DNA of 64,000 nt from Sulfuricella sp. (GCA_018336195.1 JAGXQV010000052.1:1-64000), one strand, 5' to 3'; shown: positions 5,619 through 31,735, numbered from the stretch's first letter. A program made the numbers and translations. The notes: generated from the sequence alone by a model not told the origin.

Positions 5619-5740
5619 AGTGTTTAGTTATTAGTGCTTAGTGTTGAGTTGATGTCGCCGCGCCACGCGCGGCGATATTATTCATCAATGCGCGTGGCGC
5701 ATTCCTCAACCAAACACTTAACACTAAACACTCAACACTG
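5619..5740. repeat. Heptamer-armed palindrome, element A
   Basis: The left arm is four tandem heptamers (5622-5649): GTTTAGT, TATTAGT, GCTTAGT, GTTGAGT. The right arm (5711-5738) is four heptamers reading on the other strand as GTGTTGA, GTGTTTA, GTGTTAA, GTGTTTG. The core holds two perfect hairpins: CGCCGCGC-CAC-GCGCGGCG and AATGCGC-GTG-GCGCATT. It sits between the divergent YjgR-like gene and yebC. Elements B (47.7 kb), C (44.7 kb) and D (48.3 kb) share this layout. Confidence 0.8.
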
Positions 5741-5765: not shown

Positions 5766-6491
5766 ATGGCAGGTCATTCCAAGTGGGCCAATATCCAGCA
5801 CCGTAAAGGTCGTCAGGACGCCAAGCGCGGCAAAATTTTCACCAAACTCATCAAGGAAGTCACCGTGGCGGCCAAGCTCGGCGGCGGCGACCCCAACTTC
5901 AACCCGCGCCTGCGGGTGGCCATCGACAAGGCCAAGGAAGAGAACATGCCCGCCGAGAACCTCGACCGCGCCGTCAAGCGCGGCACCGGCGAACTGGAGG
6001 GCGTCAGCTACGAGGAAATCCGCTACGAAGGCTACGGCCCCGGCGGCGTGCCGGTGATCGTCGATTGCCTGACCGACAACCGCGTCCGCACCGTCGCCGA
6101 CGTGCGCCACGCCTTCTCGAAAAACGGCGGCAACATGGGCACCGAAGGCTCGGTGGCGTTCCTCTTCAAGCACTGCGGGCAACTGTTGTTCGCTCCCGGC
6201 ACCGATGAGGACAAGGTGATGGAAGCCGCTCTCGAAGCCGGTGCGGAAGACGTGCTGAGCAACGACGACGGCAGTATCGAAGTCATCACCGCGCCCTACG
6301 AGTTCAGCAACGTCAAGGACGCCCTGGAAAAAGCCGGCCTGAAAGCCGAAATGGGCGAAGTCACCATGAAGCCCGGCAACGAAACCGAACTGAGCGGCGA
6401 CGACGCCGCGAAAATGCAGAAAATGCTGGATGCCCTGGAAAGCCTGGACGACGTGCAGGATGTGTATTCGGCGGCAGTGTTCGACGAATAA
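5766..6491 (+). CDS. yebC: YebC/PmpR-family DNA-binding/translation-associated protein
   Basis: This 241-residue protein starts [32 protein letters not shown], the diagnostic N-terminus of YebC/TACO1. The whole family length is covered, through [23 protein letters not shown] and the acidic C-terminus. The longer upstream frame begins inside the palindrome and lacks the family sequence, so ATG at 5766 (behind GAGGTAG) is chosen. YebC proteins were first described as transcription regulators and more recently as factors that relieve ribosome stalling. A strong hairpin terminator follows. In many relatives yebC precedes ruvC; here it stands alone. Confidence 0.95.
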
Positions 6492-6516: not shown

Positions 6517-6544
6517 CGGCCCGGTTATCCGGGCCGTTTTTATT
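6517..6544 (+). terminator. Rho-independent terminator of yebC
   Basis: CGGCCCGG (6517-6524) pairs with CCGGGCCG (6529-6536) across a TTAT loop and is followed by TTTTTATT. It lies 26 bases after the yebC stop and overlaps the stop codon of the convergent regulator gene. Confidence 0.85.
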
Positions 6545-7895
6545 CCAGCCCGGCCCGCTTGATCCTGCGCCACAGCGAGACCCGGTCGATGCCGAGGATG
6601 CGCGAGGCGGCGACGCGGTTGCCGCCGGTGTGTTCGAGTACCTCGCGGATATACCCGGTTTCGTAGTCGTCCAGGGTGGGCCAGCGAATTTCCCCGACGG
6701 GCAGGACGCGCCCGCGCAAGTCCTTGAGGGTATCGGGCAGTTGCGGGACGTCGATGGTGGTGCCGGTGGCCAGCGCCACGCCGCGCTCGACGAGGTTGGC
6801 GAGTTCACGGACGTTGCCGGGATAATCGTAGTCGCACAGCAGGCGCAGGGCTGCGGGGGTGATCTCGGTAACGGGCCGCGCCATTGCGGTAGCGTGGCGA
6901 TGCAGGAAGTAGTGGACCAGCAGTTCGGCATCGTCGCGGCGGTCGCGCAGCGGCGGCGGTTCAAGGTTGACCACGTTGAGGCGGAAATACAGGTCGGAGC
7001 GGAAACGTCCGGCGACAACCGCTTGCTGGAGGTCGCGATTGGTGGCTGCAATGACCCGCACGTCGACCTTGAAAGGCTCGGTGCTGCCCACCCGCAGCAC
7101 TTCGCGCTCCTGCAGGACGCGCAGCAGCTTGACCTGCATGGTGGGGGTCATTTCGGCGATTTCGTCGAGGAACAGGGTGCCCTTCTCGGCGGCTTCGATA
7201 TGCCCGCGCTTGCGGCTTTCTGCGCCGGTATAGGCGCCTTTTTCGTGACCGAACAGTTCGCTGGCAAGCAGTTCTTCCTGGAAGGCGCCGCAGTTCACCG
7301 CGACGAACGGCCCGCGCGCCCGTTTGCTGCACTGGTGGAGGTAGCGGGCGAGGAGTTCCTTGCCGGTGCCGGATTCCCCGGTAATCAGCACGTTGCAGTC
7401 GGTGGGGGCGATCTGCCGGGCGGTTTCCAGGAGGCGCTGCATGTCCGGATCCTGGGTGACGATATTGACCCGCCCGGCGCTGCCGTCACCGAAACGCAAT
7501 TGGTTTTCCTGTTTGCGGCGGCTGGTATCTAGGGCATTTCGCACCACCTGGCGGATTTCTTCGAGGCGGTAGGGTTTGGCGAGGAAGTGATACGCCCCTT
7601 CCTTGACCGCGGCAACCGCGGAATCCAGGGTGGCATAGCCGGTCAGGATGATGACTTCGGCTTCCGGCTGGCGTTCGCGGGTGCGCCGCAGCACGTCCCA
7701 GCCGTCCACCTGTTCCATGCGCAAATCGGTGAGCACCGCGTCGAAACGGTGACTCTCGATTTCCGCCAGCGCCCCCGCCCCGCTTTGCCGGGCGGTGACG
7801 GTGTAGCCTTCCTTGCGCAGGACGTGGGCGAGATTGCGCAATGCAACCGCTTCGTCGTCGACGACCAGAAGGTCGCCGGGGGAATTGGCATTCAT
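6540..7895 (-). CDS. NtrC-family sigma-54-dependent response regulator
   Basis: 451 residues in three parts: a receiver domain with phospho-acceptor D57 (VLTDLRM) and K107 (AKPY); an AAA+ sigma-54 activation domain with Walker A GESGTGKE (173-180) and the sigma-54-contacting loop GAYTGA (220-225, a conservative variant of GAFTGA); and a Fis-type helix-turn-helix ([24 protein letters not shown]). The ATG at 7895 has GAGGAAA before it; an in-frame ATG 15 bases upstream is less likely. The histidine kinase gene lies directly upstream. A sigma-54 promoter 1.8 kb away, in front of the divergent operon, is the obvious target. Confidence 0.93.
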
Positions 7896-8032: not shown

Positions 8033-9481
8033 TCACCCCGCCGGCAGGCGGATGGTGAAGCGCGCGCCTGCGCCGGGCCGGCTTTCCACGGCGATGCAGC
8101 CGCCGTGTTCCTGGACGATTTCCTCGACCACGTACAACCCCAGGCCGGTGCCGTGGCCGGGGGCGCGAGTGGTGAAAAACGGGTCGAATATCTTGTTGAG
8201 CACGTCCGCCGAAATGCCCGGCCCGTCGTCGCCGACGCTCACCAGGATGGCGGGGCGCCCCCCGTCGCCGGGAGGTTCGCCGACCACGCAGGCATCGGGT
8301 GACGGCGGCCACTCGCCTGGCATCGCGCGGTAGGCGGCGACCGAGATGTGCACGTCCTTCCCACCGGCATCGAGAGCGTTCTTGAAGAGGTTGATGAAGA
8401 CCTGCTGGAGACGCTGGTCGTCGGCGCAAACCAGTATGTCGGCGGGCACGTCGAGTTGGACGGTATGCGCGCCGGGCAACTGGCCGCGCATCAGCAGCAG
8501 GCATTTTTCCAGGAGCTCGCGCAGCGCCACCGGCTCGGTGTGAAACGCCCGGCGCCGCGCGTAGTCGAGCAGGGTACGGACGATGCGCTGGGCGCGGCGG
8601 GTTTCGCTGTCGATCTGGGCAAGCCATTCGCGGCGGGCATCCACATCGAGGTTTTCCTCCTCCATAAGGATCTGGCAGGAGGTGGAAATATTGCCGAGCG
8701 GGTTGTTGATTTCATGGGCGACGCCGGAAGCGAGCACCCCCAGCGAAACCAGCTTGTCGGACTGCAGGATCTGGCGCTGGCGGGTTTCCAGTTCTTCCAG
8801 CATACGGTTGAGTGCCAGGGTGAGCGAGACGATCTCGCGATCGGCGGAAACCTTGGGAAAAGTACGGAAACGTCCTTCGGCAATCGGCTGCAAAGCAATC
8901 TCCAGTTGCCGCAAGGGTCGCACCACGGCACGCGACAGGGCTTGGCCGCCGAGGATGCCGATCAGGACCAGCACGCCCATGGAGAGGAACAAGGTGCGTT
9001 GCGATTGCTGGACGGCGGCGGTGACGGCGGCCCGTTCCCGGACGGCGAGGGTTTCAGCGCGGCTGCTAAGGTCGCGTCCGGCACTGCGGATTTGCCCTTC
9101 CAGTTCCACCGAGGCCGGCTCGGGGCGGTCCTTCAGCGTGTTGGTCAGGGCACGGTAACGGGTCAGTACCTCGCGCAATTCGGCGAGATGGGCGGTACGA
9201 GCCAGCGCGGCGAAGGTGTCGCGATTCCGCTCCAGCCGCTCCAACAGCGAACCGGCCAGGGCATGGGCGGTTTCGAGATCGGCGGCGCTGCGATAGAGAA
9301 AGAAGTTCTTCTCATGGCGCCGCATTTCCAGGGCATCTTCCTGAAAGGCCGAAATCGTTGCGCCTTCTTCGACGCGCTGCTCCAGGAAACGCAAGTCGCC
9401 GTAAGCAAACAGGGCGAACGCAACCACGCCAAGCGCCAGAGCGTAGTAGCCGAAGAGGATTTTGCTGCGAATGCTGACCAT
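8033..9481 (-). CDS. Membrane sensor histidine kinase partner of the NtrC-type regulator
   Basis: About 482 residues from ATG 9481 (MVSIRSKILFGYYAL); an upstream ATG at 9568 adds a non-hydrophobic lead and is less likely. Order: first membrane helix (~7-28), periplasmic helical bundle with MRRHEKNFFLYRSAADL, second helix (~162-182), HAMP, HisKA with phospho-accepting histidine in GVAHEINNPLGN (~256), and an HATPase domain with N box, DDGPGIS and GTGLGLYVV. The MRRHEKNFF motif is shared with four-helix and bimodular small-molecule sensors. It is transcribed with the downstream regulator and faces the sigma-54 operon. The ligand is unknown. Confidence 0.9.
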   Translation of the reverse strand: MVSIRSKILFGYYALALGVVAFALFAYGDLRFLEQRVEEGATISAFQEDALEMRRHEKNFFLYRSAADLETAHALAGSLLERLERNRDTFAALARTAHLAELREVLTRYRALTNTLKDRPEPASVELEGQIRSAGRDLSSRAETLAVRERAAVTAAVQQSQRTLFLSMGVLVLIGILGGQALSRAVVRPLRQLEIALQPIAEGRFRTFPKVSADREIVSLTLALNRMLEELETRQRQILQSDKLVSLGVLASGVAHEINNPLGNISTSCQILMEEENLDVDARREWLAQIDSETRRAQRIVRTLLDYARRRAFHTEPVALRELLEKCLLLMRGQLPGAHTVQLDVPADILVCADDQRLQQVFINLFKNALDAGGKDVHISVAAYRAMPGEWPPSPDACVVGEPPGDGGRPAILVSVGDDGPGISADVLNKIFDPFFTTRAPGHGTGLGLYVVEEIVQEHGGCIAVESRPGAGARFTIRLPAG

Positions 9482-9513
9482 GAGTGACGTTTCGTTATGC
9501 AACAGATGTTCAA

Positions 9514-9547
9514 GTTTAAACGATATTGACTTGTCATTACAAGTCAA
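9514..9547 (+). promoter_or_regulatory. Dyad upstream of the sigma-54 promoter (candidate activator site)
   Basis: TTGACTTGT (9526-9534) and ACAAGTCAA (9539-9547) form a perfect 9-base dyad with a 4-base centre. The palindrome GTTTAAAC (9514-9521) lies beside it. The dyad centre is about 122 bases ahead of the sigma-54 -24 GG, the usual distance for an NtrC-type enhancer site. It also lies in the leader of the divergent kinase gene. Confidence 0.55.
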
Positions 9548-9656
9548 TGCGTTAAACAACACCGCCACATTTAGACGTTACAACATGCAACATTTTTCGA
9601 TTTCATCAAATCGGATACTTACCCAACCATATCAATGAGTTGAAAAATCCACAGGA

Positions 9657-9672
9657 TTGGCACAGCGATTGC
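9657..9672 (+). promoter_or_regulatory. Sigma-54 (-24/-12) promoter
   Basis: TTGGCACAGCGATTGC matches the RpoN consensus TGGCACG-N4-TTGC. The invariant GG (9659-9660) and GC (9671-9672) have exactly the required spacing. It ends 39 bases before the first ATG of the TSUP/UspA operon and is divergent from the NtrC-type two-component genes. Confidence 0.85.
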
Positions 9673-9710
9673 GGTGTAGACCCCATCAACCGACATATTT
9701 GGAGCTGGGG

Positions 9711-10196
9711 ATGAAACAACATAGCGAATCGACAAACAGTGTGCCGGCCTGCGCCGCCAACGGCAGAACGCCGGACCGCCGGTCGGGGCGCAAGCAGATC
9801 GCCCTGAGCCTGGGCGAAACGCTGCCGGCCGCGGTGATGGATTACCTCATGGGCGTATGCCCGCGCATGAGTGCCGACCTGACGGTGCTGTGCGGCAACA
9901 CCGACAGCGCGGCCCGCTTGCTCGCACCCTATTGCGATTCTCTCCAGGCTGGGGGAATCGCCGTCAACATCCTGGCGTTATCCGACAACCCGGTACCAGC
10001 CGTGGCGCGTTATCTGAACGCCAATCGGCAAGTGCTGTTCGTGGTATCCAGCGGCAACGGCGACCCGTTGCACAACCAGATGCTGTCCGGCGGCCCCCGT
10101 TCCAAATCGGCCACCCCGCCGGTCCCCATCGTAGTGGTCAGCCAGGAAGCCGCGCCCGCCGACCACCAGACACTTCCCGCTCAGGCTGCCGCCTGA
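9711..10196 (+). CDS. Unknown protein, first gene of the sigma-54 operon
   Basis: 161 residues from ATG 9711 (GGAGCTGGGG upstream). There is no signal peptide or membrane segment. The N-terminal ~40 residues are polar and basic (PDRRSGRKQ); the rest alternates short hydrophobic strands and helices (ADLTVLCGN, GIAVNILALS, RQVLFVVSS, VPIVVVSQEA), resembling a small Rossmann-like or UspA-like fold, but the UspA ATP-binding motif is absent. I do not recognise the family. Position suggests a cytoplasmic accessory protein of the downstream permease and UspA protein. Confidence 0.65.
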   Translation: MKQHSESTNSVPACAANGRTPDRRSGRKQIALSLGETLPAAVMDYLMGVCPRMSADLTVLCGNTDSAARLLAPYCDSLQAGGIAVNILALSDNPVPAVARYLNANRQVLFVVSSGNGDPLHNQMLSGGPRSKSATPPVPIVVVSQEAAPADHQTLPAQAAA

Positions 10197-10233
10197 ACTC
10201 GCAACCACCCATTTCAAGGAGGAACTCCCCATC

Positions 10234-10500
10234 ATGCGCAAATCAAAACTCCATCAACTCATGCTCACCGTCGCCTACGGCCTGGTCAGCGTGGCGCTGT
10301 ACTGGCTGCTACTCGCCAACTCCGGGCAACTCGTGGAATTCGCCAACCGGACCCACCAGGGCGAAAAAATGCTGTTCCTGGTGCCCATCGTGATCGCCTT
10401 CATATTCTCCTACGTGCACGGCACGTTCACCGGGCACTTCTGGGAAAGCCTCGGGATCAAGGCGGCCAAGGGCAGCGAAACCAAGAAAAAGGGGAGCTAA
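10234..10500 (+). CDS. Small two-helix membrane protein
   Basis: 88 residues preceded by AAGGAGGAA. Two hydrophobic segments are clear: about 11-30 (LTVAYGLVSVALYWLLLA) and 48-65 (LFLVPIVIAFIFSYVHG). The N-terminus and the KGSETKKKGS tail are basic, so both ends are probably cytoplasmic. It lies 3 bases before the TSUP permease gene and is probably co-translated with it. No family is recognised; a small subunit or chaperone of the permease is a reasonable inference. Confidence 0.75.
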   Translation: MRKSKLHQLMLTVAYGLVSVALYWLLLANSGQLVEFANRTHQGEKMLFLVPIVIAFIFSYVHGTFTGHFWESLGIKAAKGSETKKKGS

Positions 10501-10503
10501 ACC

Positions 10504-11592
10504 ATGGAATCCCTATCCTTTATCGACCTGACCCTTTACAACGCACTGGCGCTGTTCGTGGTGGGATTCATCGGCGGCATGGTGTCCGGCTTCATCGGCT
10601 CGGGCGGCGCCTTCGTGATGACCCCGGCAATGATGACGCTGGGCGTGCCCGGCATCATCGCGGTGGCTTCCAACATCTGCCATAAATTCCCGAAATCCCT
10701 GGTGGGGGCGATGAAGCGCCACAAGTACGGCCAAGTGGACGTCAAGCTCGGCATCATCATGGGCATCTTCGCCGAAGCCGGGATGCTGCTCGGCAAGCAT
10801 TTCATGACCGACATCAAGCATCTCTACGGCGATGCCGGGAGCAACCTCTACGTCTCGGTGGTATTCATCGTGGTGCTCGGCATCGTCGGCAGCTTCGTGC
10901 TGCGCGACGCCTACCGGATGCACAAGGACGAGCAGGCCGGCGACGAAGTAGCCAACCAGGCGACCCGGCTGGCGAAATGGGTGCAGTCGCTGCACATCCC
11001 CGGCACCATGATGTATTTTCCCTCGCTCAAGGCGCGTGTCTCGCTGCTCATCATCGCGCCGCTGGGCTTCGCCACCGGCATGTTGGCGGCGACCATCGCG
11101 GTGGGCGGCTTCATCGGCGTGCCGGCGATGATCTACATTCTCGGCGCGCCGGCCCTGATGGCTTCCGCTTCAGAACTGGTGATCGCCTTCGTGATGGGCC
11201 TGGGCGGGACGATCTTGTACGCCCTCGATGGCTCGGTGGACATCCGCCTGGCGATGATTATCCTGGCCGGCTCGCTGTTCGGCATCCAACTCGGTGCCAT
11301 CGGCACCACTTACGTGAAGGATTTTGTGGTCAAACTGGTGATGGGGCTGATCATGGTGATCGTGCTCTTCTCGCGGTTCTTCTATATTCCCGGCTACCTC
11401 AACCAGCTCGGTATGCTCGAAGACCTGCCCGAAACCACCGTGACGACCCTCAAGATGTTCGGGGATGGCACCCTGGTTCTGGCCTTGGCGGTGGGCGGCC
11501 TCACCATCGTCATGGCTCTGTTGAAGGGTATGGCGGAACATCGTCGGAATCAGCTCGCCATCACCGAACACCCCCTCGCCCAGGAGAATTGA
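10504..11592 (+). CDS. TSUP/TauE-SafE family membrane permease
   Basis: 362 residues with about eight or nine hydrophobic segments in two halves. The family signature is in the first half (GFIGGMVSGFIGSGGAFVMTP) and is echoed in the second (GFATGMLAATIAVGGFIGVPAM). TSUP proteins move sulfite, sulfonates, thiosulfate or other small organosulfur or organic anions, usually outward. The substrate cannot be read here. A hydrophilic loop (~140-165) links the halves, and a C-terminal segment is followed by a basic tail. It is the third gene of the sigma-54 operon, next to a UspA gene. Confidence 0.88.
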   Translation: MESLSFIDLTLYNALALFVVGFIGGMVSGFIGSGGAFVMTPAMMTLGVPGIIAVASNICHKFPKSLVGAMKRHKYGQVDVKLGIIMGIFAEAGMLLGKHFMTDIKHLYGDAGSNLYVSVVFIVVLGIVGSFVLRDAYRMHKDEQAGDEVANQATRLAKWVQSLHIPGTMMYFPSLKARVSLLIIAPLGFATGMLAATIAVGGFIGVPAMIYILGAPALMASASELVIAFVMGLGGTILYALDGSVDIRLAMIILAGSLFGIQLGAIGTTYVKDFVVKLVMGLIMVIVLFSRFFYIPGYLNQLGMLEDLPETTVTTLKMFGDGTLVLALAVGGLTIVMALLKGMAEHRRNQLAITEHPLAQEN

Positions 11593-11593
11593 G

Positions 11594-12448
11594 TTGATTG
11601 AACAACAACTCCGAAAAGCCCGCCACATCGGCAACATCCTGGTCGCCACCGACGGTTCCGAGTTTTCCGAAAGCGCCACCGGCCTTGCCATCGAGGTTGC
11701 CCGAGATTGCCAAGCCAAGCTCACTGTGATGACCATGGTTCCGTTCGGCGAAGACCTGGAAATGGTTGGCACCCACGCCCTGCGTGCCAGCCAGGACAAG
11801 GAGGCCCAAGCCCGCCTCGACGAGGTGGCGGCGCGGGCTGTTGCCGCCGGGGTGGATTGCGTCACCTCGATCCGCTACGGCGAAGACCCCGCCCAGGAAA
11901 TCGTCGCGGCCGCCGATGAAATCGGCACCGATCTGATCGTCATGGGGCGGCGCGGCAAGCGTGGCTTGGCGCGGATGATGGTCGGCGACGCCACCGCCAA
12001 GGTGGTCGGCAATGCGGAATGCTTGGTGCTGATTGCACCGCGTGGCGCGAAGATGTGGCAACGCGGCATCGTGCTGGCCACCGACGGTTCCGCCCATAGC
12101 GAGGCGGCAGCCGCCAGCGCGATTGCCTTCGCCGCGCGCTGCAAGCTGCCGCTCACCGTGGTCTCCGCAACCACCGCCAGCCACAGCGCCGCCCGCAAGG
12201 CGGAAGCATTGTCTGCCGTGGAGAAGGTCGCGGCACTGGCGAAGACTCAGGGGATCAGCGGGGAAGCATTGGTGGAGGAAGGGCATCCCAACGAGGTAGT
12301 CGTGGCCGCCGCTGCCGGCAAGGCCGCCGACCTGATCGTGGTGGGCAGCCACGGACGCACGGGCATTGCCAAGATTCTGCTGGGCAGCATTTCCGAGCGC
12401 ATCATCGGCGCCGCACAATGCCCGGTACTGGTCGCAAAGCCGCTCTGA
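11594..12448 (+). CDS. Tandem universal stress protein (two UspA domains)
   Basis: 284 residues with a TTG start one base after the permease stop, preceded by CAGGAGAA. Two UspA domains occupy ~12-145 and ~153-283. The ATP-binding glycine motif G-2x-G-9x-G-S is complete in domain 2 (GSHGRTGIAKILLGS). In domain 1 the last position is D (GRRGKRGLARMMVGD), so ATP binding there may differ. Tandem Usps of this size are common in proteobacteria and often sit beside transporters. Last gene of the sigma-54 operon. Confidence 0.9.
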   Translation: MIEQQLRKARHIGNILVATDGSEFSESATGLAIEVARDCQAKLTVMTMVPFGEDLEMVGTHALRASQDKEAQARLDEVAARAVAAGVDCVTSIRYGEDPAQEIVAAADEIGTDLIVMGRRGKRGLARMMVGDATAKVVGNAECLVLIAPRGAKMWQRGIVLATDGSAHSEAAAASAIAFAARCKLPLTVVSATTASHSAARKAEALSAVEKVAALAKTQGISGEALVEEGHPNEVVVAAAAGKAADLIVVGSHGRTGIAKILLGSISERIIGAAQCPVLVAKPL

Positions 12449-12478: not shown

Positions 12479-13507
12479 TCATGCAGGCTGTGTGACCGGC
12501 TCCGCATGGTGAGGTGCGCAACGCGCCCGGACCTCGTCGATCGCATCCACTACTCCGATAGTGATGACCACCGTTCCCTGCACAATGGGCGAGTCGTGGG
12601 GCGGGTTGAAAAGGTAGGCCTCTCCCTCGCGAAGCACCAGCGCCACCACCGTGACGTCGGATTGTTGCAGAACGCCGCTTTCCCCCAACGTCTTTCCGAT
12701 CCACGGCGATCCGACGGGAACCACGATTTCCTCGACCCGAATGGTTTTTTCCTTGGAACGCATCATGATGTCGAGGAAAGTCACCACCGACGGGCGCATC
12801 ATTTCCGACACCATCCTCAGACCGCCGATGGCGTTGGGCATAATCACCCGGTCGGCGCCGACCTTGATGAGTTTCTGCCGAGATTCCTCGTCGACCGCCT
12901 TGGAAACAATGCGCAACTCGGGATTCAGCCCTTTCGCGGTGAGCACCACGAACAGGTTTTCCGCATCGGTATGGAGAGTGCTGAACAGCCCCTTCGCCCG
13001 CACCACGCCGGCGGATTGCAGCACGGCGTCGGTCGTCGCGTCGCCGTCGATGCACAGGATACCGCGCTCGGCAAGGGTGGAAAGCTTACTCTTGTCGGTC
13101 TCGATCACCACGAAGGGGCGTTTGGTTTTGCGCAATTCTTCGATGGCATAACGCCCCGTCTGGCTGTCACCGCACACGATGTAATGCCCGCTGAGACGCT
13201 CGATTGCTTTGTCCATCTTCATCCTTTTTAAAACGTCGGTCAGTTCGCCTTCCACAATGATCGCGGTAATCATCGAGATGCTGTAGAGCAGGATACCCGA
13301 CCCCGAGAGGATCAGGAATATGGTGAAAATCCGCCCGTTGTCGGAAAGCGGATGGGTTTCGCCGTACCCCACCGAGGCGACGGTGATGACCGTCATGTAC
13401 AGGCCATCGAAAAACGTCCAACCTTCGATCAACTGATATCCGGTCGCCCCGGCGGCGAGTACCGCCACCAAGAGGAACAAAATGCTGGCAATTTTCCTGA
13501 ATATCAT
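12479..13507 (-). CDS. Potassium channel with cytoplasmic RCK/TrkA domain
   Basis: 342 residues. Two membrane helices (~5-24, ~60-82) flank a pore loop with selectivity filter TVASVGYGE (42-50), so this is a 2-TM channel of the MthK/Kch type. Residues ~108-230 are a TrkA-N (RCK) domain and ~255-330 a TrkA-C domain. The nucleotide-binding loop is CGDSQTGR in place of the usual GxGxxG, closer to the MthK-type non-NAD form. Convergent with the UspA gene, 30 bases apart. Channel identity is secure; gating ligand unknown. Confidence 0.9.
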   Translation of the reverse strand: MIFRKIASILFLLVAVLAAGATGYQLIEGWTFFDGLYMTVITVASVGYGETHPLSDNGRIFTIFLILSGSGILLYSISMITAIIVEGELTDVLKRMKMDKAIERLSGHYIVCGDSQTGRYAIEELRKTKRPFVVIETDKSKLSTLAERGILCIDGDATTDAVLQSAGVVRAKGLFSTLHTDAENLFVVLTAKGLNPELRIVSKAVDEESRQKLIKVGADRVIMPNAIGGLRMVSEMMRPSVVTFLDIMMRSKEKTIRVEEIVVPVGSPWIGKTLGESGVLQQSDVTVVALVLREGEAYLFNPPHDSPIVQGTVVITIGVVDAIDEVRARCAPHHAEPVTQPA

Positions 13508-29740: not shown

Positions 29741-31735
29741 TCAGCCTCTAATAAACAGCGTCATCAGCGTCAGAACGCCGATCAACATGGCAAACGCATA
29801 GTGGTAAATGTAGCCGGACTGGAGATGGCGGACCAGCGCCGAGCACATCCCAACCAAGCGTGCCGTGCCGTTGACGAAGAACCCGTCGATCACCGCCACG
29901 TCGCCGCCTTTCCACAATCCACGCCCCAGCAGGCGTGCGCCGCCGGCAAAGAACCACTCGTTGAATTCGTCGAAACCGTATTTCTTTTCGAGGATCATCG
30001 CCGGCAAGCTGAGCGTGGCCTTGATTTGCGCCGGCAACTCGGGGCGGCGGATATAGAGGAACCATGCCGTCGCCGCGCCGGAGAGTGCCAGCCAGAAAGG
30101 TAGCGTTGTTACGGCGTGCCCCATCATCCCCACCACGCCATGGAATTCTTCGGCCATGTGGGCCAGGCCATGATGCTCGTGAGAGATGAAAATGGCATCG
30201 CCGAAATAATTTTCGAACAGGATCGGGCCTATCAGCCAACCGGCGGCCACCGACGGAATCGCCAGCAGGATCAGCGGCAAGGTGACCACCTTGGGCGACT
30301 CATGCGGCTCGACCGGGCCATGATGGCCGTGATCATCGTGATGCGCATGCTCGTCATGATGGGCGTGGCGGAAGCGTTCCTCGCCGTGGAAGGTGTAGAA
30401 CACCAGCCGGAAGGAATAAAAGCCGCCGACGAAGACACCGATCAAAATCGCCAGATAGGCAAAGCCGGAACCGGGGATATGCGACAGGGCCACCGCCTCG
30501 ATGATCGAATCCTTGGAGAAGAAGCCGGCGAACGGCGGCAGGCCGGCGTTGGCGATGGCGCCGATCAACACGGTCAGGTAGGTGATCGGCATGTACTTGC
30601 GCAGGCCGCCCATGCGGCGCATGTCCTGCTCGTGGTGCATGGCCATGATTACCGAGCCGGCGCCGAGGAACAATACCGCCTTGAAAAAGGCGTGGGTCAT
30701 CAGGTGGAAGATCGCCACCGAGTAGGCCGAGGCGCCCAGCGCCACGGTCATGTACCCCAGTTGCGAAAGGGTGGAATAGGCCACCACCCGCTTGATGTCG
30801 GTCTGGACGATGGCGATCAGCGCCATGAACAGCGCGGTAATCGCGCCGATGACGATGACGAAAGACAGCGCGGTTTCCGACAATTCGAACAGCGGCGACA
30901 TACGCGCCACCATGAAGATGCCCGCCGTCACCATGGTAGCGGCGTGGATCAGCGCGGAAATTGGGGTCGGGCCTTCCATCGAGTCGGGCAACCAGACGTG
31001 CAGGGGAAACTGCGCCGACTTGCCCATCGCGCCGATGAACAACAGGATGCAGGTCACGGTGAGCAGCGCCGGCTGCATTTCGGAAGAAATCACCATCTTC
31101 ATGCCAACCAATTCGTTGGCATGAGCGAACACGGCGGCATAGTCGAGCGTACCGAAGTGCGCCAAAATCAGCCCAATGCCCAACAGGAAGCCGAAGTCGC
31201 CAACCCGGTTGACCAGGAACGCCTTGAGGTTGGCGTAAATCGCCGTCGGACGGGTATACCAGAAGCCGATCAGCAGGTAGGACACCAGGCCCACCGCTTC
31301 CCAGCCGAAGAACAACTGAACGAAGTTGTTGGACATCACCAGCATCAGCATCGAGAAGGTGAACAGCGAAATGTAGGCGAAAAAGCGCTGGTAGCCGGGG
31401 TCTTCAGCCATGTAGCCAATGGTGTAGACGTGCACCATCAACGAAACGAAGGTCACCACCAGCATCATCAGCACGGTCAGCCTATCGATCAGGAAGCCTA
31501 CTTCGAAGCGAGTTTCACCGCTGGTCAGCCAAGTATACACGGTGCCGTTGAAGGTGTGCCCTTGCTGGACGTCCTGGAAGATCAACAGCGACAAGACGAA
31601 GGAAACCGCCACGCCGAGGATGGTGACGACGTGCGATCCGGTGCGTCCGATGGCGCGCCCGAACAAGCCGGCGAGAATCGCACCGGCAAGCGGCGCAAGG
31701 GGGACCAGCAGATAGAGTTTTTGCATGTCCGTCAT
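29741..31735 (-). CDS. nuoL: NADH-quinone oxidoreductase subunit L
   Basis: 664-residue distal proton-pumping subunit. Core: FEVGFLIDRLTVLMMLVVTFVSLMVHVYTIGYM, FFGWEAVGLVSYLLIGFW, GAMGKSAQFPLHVWLPDSMEGPTPISALIHAATMVTAGIFM, and the C-terminal region that forms the long lateral helix. A histidine-rich loop (RHAHHDEHAHHDDHGHHG) at ~447-464 is a notable local feature of unknown role. The ATG follows nuoK by one base. Confidence 0.97.
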   Translation of the reverse strand: MTDMQKLYLLVPLAPLAGAILAGLFGRAIGRTGSHVVTILGVAVSFVLSLLIFQDVQQGHTFNGTVYTWLTSGETRFEVGFLIDRLTVLMMLVVTFVSLMVHVYTIGYMAEDPGYQRFFAYISLFTFSMLMLVMSNNFVQLFFGWEAVGLVSYLLIGFWYTRPTAIYANLKAFLVNRVGDFGFLLGIGLILAHFGTLDYAAVFAHANELVGMKMVISSEMQPALLTVTCILLFIGAMGKSAQFPLHVWLPDSMEGPTPISALIHAATMVTAGIFMVARMSPLFELSETALSFVIVIGAITALFMALIAIVQTDIKRVVAYSTLSQLGYMTVALGASAYSVAIFHLMTHAFFKAVLFLGAGSVIMAMHHEQDMRRMGGLRKYMPITYLTVLIGAIANAGLPPFAGFFSKDSIIEAVALSHIPGSGFAYLAILIGVFVGGFYSFRLVFYTFHGEERFRHAHHDEHAHHDDHGHHGPVEPHESPKVVTLPLILLAIPSVAAGWLIGPILFENYFGDAIFISHEHHGLAHMAEEFHGVVGMMGHAVTTLPFWLALSGAATAWFLYIRRPELPAQIKATLSLPAMILEKKYGFDEFNEWFFAGGARLLGRGLWKGGDVAVIDGFFVNGTARLVGMCSALVRHLQSGYIYHYAFAMLIGVLTLMTLFIRG

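Follow-up and report, generated by a model that had tools for sequence, protein, structure and literature searches.

What controls the expression of a transporter operon of the TSUP family in a sulfur bacterium, and what might the transporter carry? The question is raised by a stretch of 64,000 nucleotides from Sulfuricella sp. (GCA_018336195.1 JAGXQV010000052.1:1-64000), which as a whole is called the window below. A 229-base intergenic region separates a minus-strand gene pair, for a membrane histidine kinase and a response regulator, from a plus-strand operon of four genes (9711-12448) for a putative Usp-like protein (orf1), a small membrane protein, a TSUP permease and a tandem universal stress protein (Usp). 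The original prediction had proposed a circuit in which a sigma-54 promoter and an upstream dyad link the pair to the operon. We found strong support for an operon driven by sigma-54 and linked to the two-component pair, as both are conserved in beta- and gammaproteobacteria and in Nitrospirota; the dyad is not supported as an enhancer. With good confidence, we propose that the divergent kinase and regulator form a local sigma-54 switch for the operon.

The protein families, the gene order, the sites and their conservation were read directly from the DNA and its translations. The set of relatives comprised 80 TSUP loci; some counts were made on fewer loci, with the denominators stated. The host genome has a size of 4.77 Mb, with 7% contamination of the bin.

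The sigma-54 promoter

The promoter sequence TTGGCACAGCGATTGCGG, with TGGCAC at 9658-9663 and TTGC at 9669-9672, was the top-scoring sigma-54 site of the 64 kb. The exact pattern TGGCAC-N5-TTGC occurred once in the window, at this position, compared to 0.36 expected in shuffles, which alone is weak evidence, and a consensus search allowing two mismatches was uninformative (13 found vs 14.9 expected). The promoter is convincing because its position and sequence are conserved in relatives, not because of the exact match alone. Most relatives with the divergent pair had a sigma-54 site with a score of 12.8-17 at the equivalent position. The distance from the promoter to the kinase start was 172-177 bases in most of the clade nearest to the window (209 in locus L011) and about 97-101 bases in most Thiobacillus-type loci.

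We also observed that, where a sigma-54 regulator is linked to the locus, 22 of 37 loci had a site scoring at least 12.5, compared to 4 of 36 where none is linked (Fisher p 2e-5, from loci with enough upstream sequence; these are related to each other, so the p value is optimistic). The near-consensus -24/-12 element originally placed at 9657-9672 was confirmed. The host genome encodes one rpoN.

As a separate observation, contig C25 of the host genome (G000) has at L131:1591 a sigma-54-like sequence with a very high score of 19.1 (GTGGCACGGTCGTTGCAAA); a dsrA gene lies about 4.7 kb away.

Candidate activator sites and an IHF-like site

The training set of a palindromic motif model consisted of 27 upstream regions, all from relatives and none from the window. 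The motif converged on TGTTGC-N5-GCAACA, where the fifth base is G or T; its width and 5-base spacer were chosen after reading the sequences by eye, and the form of the model is not independent of that reading. The two best matches in the 64 kb both fell into the intergenic region (Table 1), while the third-best match scored 13.1 bits. The distal site is about 170 bases and the proximal site 82 bases upstream of the -24 element. In most relatives of the same clade the sites were found at 167-171 bases (207 in L011) and at 79-83 bases, and Thiobacillus-type loci had one motif site, 78-80 bases upstream of -24.

The shared form of both sites, GTTNCNNNATGCAACA, occurred exactly only twice in 4.77 Mb, both times in this intergenic region; since the pattern was derived from the two window sites, this count describes their uniqueness and is no independent test. 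The palindrome with two mismatches gave 186 genome hits per strand, which is too loose for naming further targets. The TGTTGC-N5-GCAACA-type sequences at 9488-9504 and 9576-9592 are, judging by motif score and conserved spacing, likely activator sites.

An enhancer, an IHF bend and a -24/-12 promoter make up the textbook sigma-54 layout. The exact IHF consensus WATCAANNNNTTR was found once in the window (0.89 expected), at 9630-9642, between the proximal site and the promoter. Among relatives, the interval between these two elements contained an exact match in 8 of 25 loci compared to 0.17 expected from shuffles (maximum 2 in 500), and a match with at most one mismatch in 17 of 25 loci compared to 3.1 expected. 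The IHF-like sites often share the position -28 from the -24 element.

The palindromic dyad

A perfect 9-base dyad about 120 bases upstream of the promoter had been taken as the binding site of the regulator. The dyad is real and non-random; it has 10-base arms, slightly longer than described, and a dyad of this kind arose in 0.6% of shuffles of the 229-base region. The perfect arms, the distance of about 120 bases 5' of the promoter and the low chance expectation would all suit an enhancer. We consider this role very improbable, however, since the dyad is missing in eight relatives of the same layout, while a different motif is kept at two fixed positions flanking it, and since its right arm doubles as the -35-like box of a sigma-70 promoter candidate for the kinase gene. 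The best inverted repeats of the relatives in the same interval had arms of 4-6 bases and other sequences. Even when up to two mismatches were allowed, the 4.77 Mb genome had no second copy of the dyad, and the only genome of the same genus (80% complete) had no match to this TSUP. The dyad is probably not the binding site of the activator; it may serve the kinase and regulator genes as a lineage-specific operator, or be incidental. The other of the two perfect 10-base dyads in the window is located at 31099-31124 (TCATGCCAACCAATTCGTTGGCATGA).

The kinase and the response regulator

The regulator, in which Pfam identified the REC, Sigma54_activat and HTH_8 domains (E-value 3.5e-73), carries the features of the NtrC family: Walker A and B motifs, a Fis-type helix-turn-helix and the phospho-acceptor D57. 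In the tree, it was placed inside a 100/100 clade with eight TSUP-linked regulators. The helix-turn-helix sequence IDRVSLWR was nearly invariant among the aligned relatives, which is in keeping with a conserved DNA site.

The relatives of the kinase align from the ATG at 9481. Its sensor was modelled as a periplasmic helical bundle, for which the best fold matches were weak and included NarQ, a sensor of nitrate and nitrite, and the chemoreceptor PcaY (E-values of about 0.01); one relative matched the helical bimodular domain (E-value 2e-4). Like NarQ, which was among the best fold matches, the window kinase has a predicted periplasmic helical bundle together with HAMP. The differences are that the match is weak (E-value 8e-3, TM about 0.5-0.6, 13-15% identity) and that the output in the window is a sigma-54 activator. 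R54, R55 and E57 are invariant in the relatives, and the two arginines, in the first periplasmic helix, would suit an anion ligand.

Proposed mechanism

Phosphorylation, DNA binding, IHF action, transcription, transport and the signal are steps that we infer from these features, and they would be connected as follows. A periplasmic signal would activate the kinase, which would phosphorylate the regulator. The regulator would bind to the two TGTTGC-N5-GCAACA-type sites, and IHF bending the DNA at 9630-9642 would let it reach the sigma-54 polymerase at 9658-9672. A single transcript would then cover all four genes of the operon. The product would be an anion-transport module made of the permease and its constant small membrane partner, and the Usp-type proteins may couple the permease to the nucleotide or energy state. 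The dyad at 9525-9548 would not be the site of the activator; it overlaps the candidate promoter of the kinase gene itself.

Several observations weigh against this mechanism. The original prediction described a membrane kinase and an NtrC-type activator with all sigma-54 contacts; the two families were as described, but the contact loop is GAYTGA rather than the exact GAFTGA, while in the twelve aligned relatives the loop is GAFTGA or a near variant that keeps the F. Three of the eight nearest relatives (L006, L014 and L017) have GTTTCA-type half sites near the equivalent positions, with a low motif score. In 15 of the 37 loci with a linked regulator no site scored 12.5; these are mostly Nitrospirota with degenerate -12 boxes. 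Finally, the sigma-54 scores came from a Barrios-type matrix that is approximate.

Genes of the operon

The operon genes are separated by gaps of only 37, 3 and 1 bases, and so are likely to be co-transcribed. Their predicted order (a protein of no recognised family, a small membrane protein, TSUP, tandem UspA) was borne out by Pfam and by the coordinates (Table 1).

Table 1. Coordinates of the genes and sites of the locus in the window, with the kind of evidence for each.
Feature	Position	Strand	Evidence
Response regulator: receiver, sigma-54 AAA+, Fis-type HTH	6540..7895	-	Pfam, alignment, tree
Membrane histidine kinase: HAMP, HisKA, HATPase; start ATG 9481	8033..9481	-	Pfam, relatives, fold model
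Distal candidate activator site CGTTTCGTTATGCAACA	9488..9504	.	17.5 bits, best match in 64 kb
Candidate sigma-70 promoter of kinase/regulator genes, TTGACT-16-TATCGT	9520..9547	-	Consensus scan, weak
Dyad ATTGACTTGT-CATT-ACAAGTCAAT, 10-base arms	9525..9548	.	Not conserved; overlaps kinase promoter candidate
Proximal candidate activator site CGTTACAACATGCAACA	9576..9592	.	16.1 bits, second-best in 64 kb
IHF-like site TATCAATGAGTTG	9630..9642	+	Between proximal site and promoter
Sigma-54 -24/-12 promoter TGGCACAGCGATTGC	9658..9672	+	Matrix score, conservation
orf1, putative Usp-like alpha/beta protein, 161 amino acids	9711..10196	+	Family alignment, structure model, weak 3idf fold match
Small membrane protein, 88 amino acids	10234..10500	+	Precedes TSUP in relatives
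TSUP (TauE/SafE) permease	10504..11592	+	PF01925, E-value 1.8e-35; 80 relative loci
Tandem universal stress protein	11594..12448	+	PF00582, two stretches

The permease matched PF01925 with 123.2 bits (gathering score 32.6), and a sequence search found no relative of it in PDB. For the small membrane protein there was no family match in Pfam or NCBIfam. In 72 of 76 loci it stands immediately 5' of the gene for this TSUP, with two more loci having it at another place, and because of this adjacency it is probably a subunit or partner of the permease. A Usp gene directly follows TSUP in 49 of 74 loci.

The orf1 product had no match in NCBIfam and none in Pfam up to an E-value of 1, PF00582 included. 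Its predicted fold is alpha/beta, confident over residues 31-120. The best PDB fold match was the USP-like 3idf, at a weak E-value of 1.1e-3, and further Usp structures came close behind it together with a large number of unrelated Rossmann folds; we label orf1 as a divergent, possibly Usp-like protein and go no further. Its relatives carry an N-terminal module of the MKxLxxxLKxALxALAFAEAGE type, which is degenerate in the window protein. In Nitrospirota, this module also occurs as separate proteins of 53-62 amino acids with an AFAEAGEFETAR-type motif (for example, L046:9008-9175, L074:8993-9178 and L080:9045-9206); the one member of this family that was scanned had no Pfam or NCBIfam match.

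A gene for a TrkA-type potassium channel at 12479-13507 was considered as a further member of the system and was rejected, as it is convergent and had matches in 0 of the 80 relative loci.

Relation to the Desulfovibrio circuit

The combination with two unrecognised small proteins had been called unusual. Both proteins indeed lack a family match, but the description holds only in part: one of them is a near-constant partner of this TSUP subfamily, the other is divergent and putatively Usp-like, and for Desulfovibrio vulgaris an operon of five genes has been published that appears to be equivalent and is controlled by a sigma-54 response regulator (PMC3333781, PMC4641369). There, the regulator of the DVU3303-3305 system targets DVU3302-3298, which encode membrane and hypothetical proteins that in some cases contain UspA domains; this Desulfovibrio regulator, which resembles that of the window, is reported to bind ahead of the operon, and orthologues of DVU3303-3305 were noted in Thermodesulfovibrio, Thioalkalivibrio and Dechloromonas (PMC3333781). 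DVU3302-3298 were listed among sigma-54 dependent genes, and the text of that source groups together motifs with TGT/ACA half sites (PMC4641369).

The window shares with DVU3303-3305 a sigma-54 response regulator (REC, AAA+, Fis HTH) with an adjacent HAMP kinase, and with DVU3302-3298 a divergent operon of hypothetical, membrane, anion-transporter and UspA-type genes behind a sigma-54 promoter. This likeness was drawn from published descriptions. Unlike DVU3303, no Lon-receiver protein is encoded in the window, and the contact loop is GAYTGA compared to GAFSGA in the Desulfovibrio system. No receiver-Lon fusion was found in the host genome among the matches listed; Lon matches cover the AAA/protease part, and receivers match apart. 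Because no such protein was seen in the window or, among the matches listed, elsewhere in the genome, we file the window circuit as a variant and not as a three-component member.

Two Thermodesulfovibrionales loci (L046 and L047) have the same operon order, the same divergent pair (regulator 59% identical) and UAS-like sites (UAS, upstream activating sequence). They differ from the window in a third gene, for a receiver fused to Lon (Pfam Response_reg and Lon_C in L046, a homologue in L047), and in a separate FAEAGE-type small protein that heads the operon. This is the gene arrangement described for DVU3303-3305 of D. vulgaris. Our literature searches found no named TSUP/Usp/sigma-54 system of sulfur oxidisers. 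The window circuit is a relative of the Desulfovibrio stress circuit and not an unprecedented combination.

This relationship bears on whether the operon is a general stress operon, with the Usp-type proteins central and the permease secondary. The operon has two Usp-type genes, orf1 being only putatively one of them, and in D. vulgaris the counterpart genes go up at high pH, after heat shock and in stationary phase (PMC3333781). On the other hand, the permease and its small partner occur together in 72 of 76 loci, with Usp directly following in 49 of 74, and the transporter itself matters in D. vulgaris: DVU3299, the TSUP counterpart as gene order would suggest, is reported to be important under chlorate (PMC10102598). 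We regard a stress operon of this kind as doubtful and keep to an anion-transport module under a local switch.

The SulP link and the possible cargo

Another contig of the host genome (L129; G000 C51:44000-62000) contains two paralogous kinase/regulator pairs, each divergent from a gene for a SulP transporter. Compared to the window, the regulators are 63% and 55% and the kinases 47% and 42% identical. Upstream of the first SulP gene there are UAS sites at 10772 and 10862 and a sigma-54 promoter at 10957; the other has weaker UAS sites at 5649 and 5750 and a promoter at 5833. The kinase/regulator family, the divergent target, the pair of UAS sites and the sigma-54 promoter are thus the same as in the window, while the target is SulP, not TSUP. 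Both SulP operons begin with proteins of 65-70 amino acids, loosely resembling the operon-head module. NuoL/M-like and NADHdh-like genes come after one of the SulP genes. A genome search with a gapped UAS-plus-promoter pattern returned the window and the C51 SulP2 operon, and its count was otherwise near the control (8 and 7 vs 3 and 6).

Within 10 kb of TSUP, the 80 loci contained SulP in 32 cases, NuoL/M-like genes in 13 and DabA in 3. Because SulP genes are usually few per genome, we would judge a SulP linkage of 40% to be far higher than expected from scattered copies. Several relatives have SulP on the kinase side of the locus, past the regulator, and a UAS-like sequence precedes SulP in L010, L011 and L028 (by eye, unscored).

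The host genome encodes RuBisCO and dsrA; given the 7% contamination, it is not certain that both come from one organism. Two full-length dsrA copies were seen on different contigs (C25 and C101), and the bin may mix two organisms.

The cargo is fairly likely to be some anion. Sulfur oxyanions and bicarbonate are both plausible; export, as originally suggested, is one possibility and import is another. If cargo and signal were a sulfur oxyanion (sulfite, thiosulfate or sulfate), exported or imported during sulfur oxidation, this would suit the dsrA gene, the linked SulP genes, the sulfur-bacterium names on many relatives and Pfam, which names sulfite exporters within the TSUP family. The Pfam name is not a tested function, however, the operon is without any sulfur gene, and SulP proteins also carry bicarbonate (PMC12628692), so that we hold a sulfur oxyanion to be a real possibility of somewhat less than even chance. 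Bicarbonate, with the module serving inorganic carbon acquisition of autotrophs, would agree with RuBisCO in the genome, with SulP, NuoL/M-like and DabA genes at the relatives' loci and with some SulP proteins of autotrophic Pseudomonadota carrying bicarbonate (PMC12628692, PMC10880623). Still, TSUP is not among the bicarbonate carriers listed in a review (PMC10880623) and a similar operon is present in sulfate reducers (PMC3333781), which makes bicarbonate rather unlikely.

Tentatively, one family of kinases and sigma-54 regulators with one DNA motif may control a set of unrelated anion transporters in sulfur-cycling autotrophs, namely TSUP, for which the small membrane protein would be an obligate subunit, and SulP, which would have NuoL/M-like partners, as a dedicated regulon for bicarbonate or sulfur oxyanions with Usp-type built-in regulators.

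Significance

Transporters of the TSUP family occur widely, most of them with no known substrate. For the permease studied here, the controlling regulator, the probable DNA sites, a near-constant small partner and linked SulP transporters could be named, which makes the substrate and the signal directly testable. A circuit studied in Desulfovibrio is extended to sulfur-oxidising autotrophs, with further targets predicted in the same genome. The interest of the locus is in a precise, testable regulatory map and in the unexpected link to SulP.

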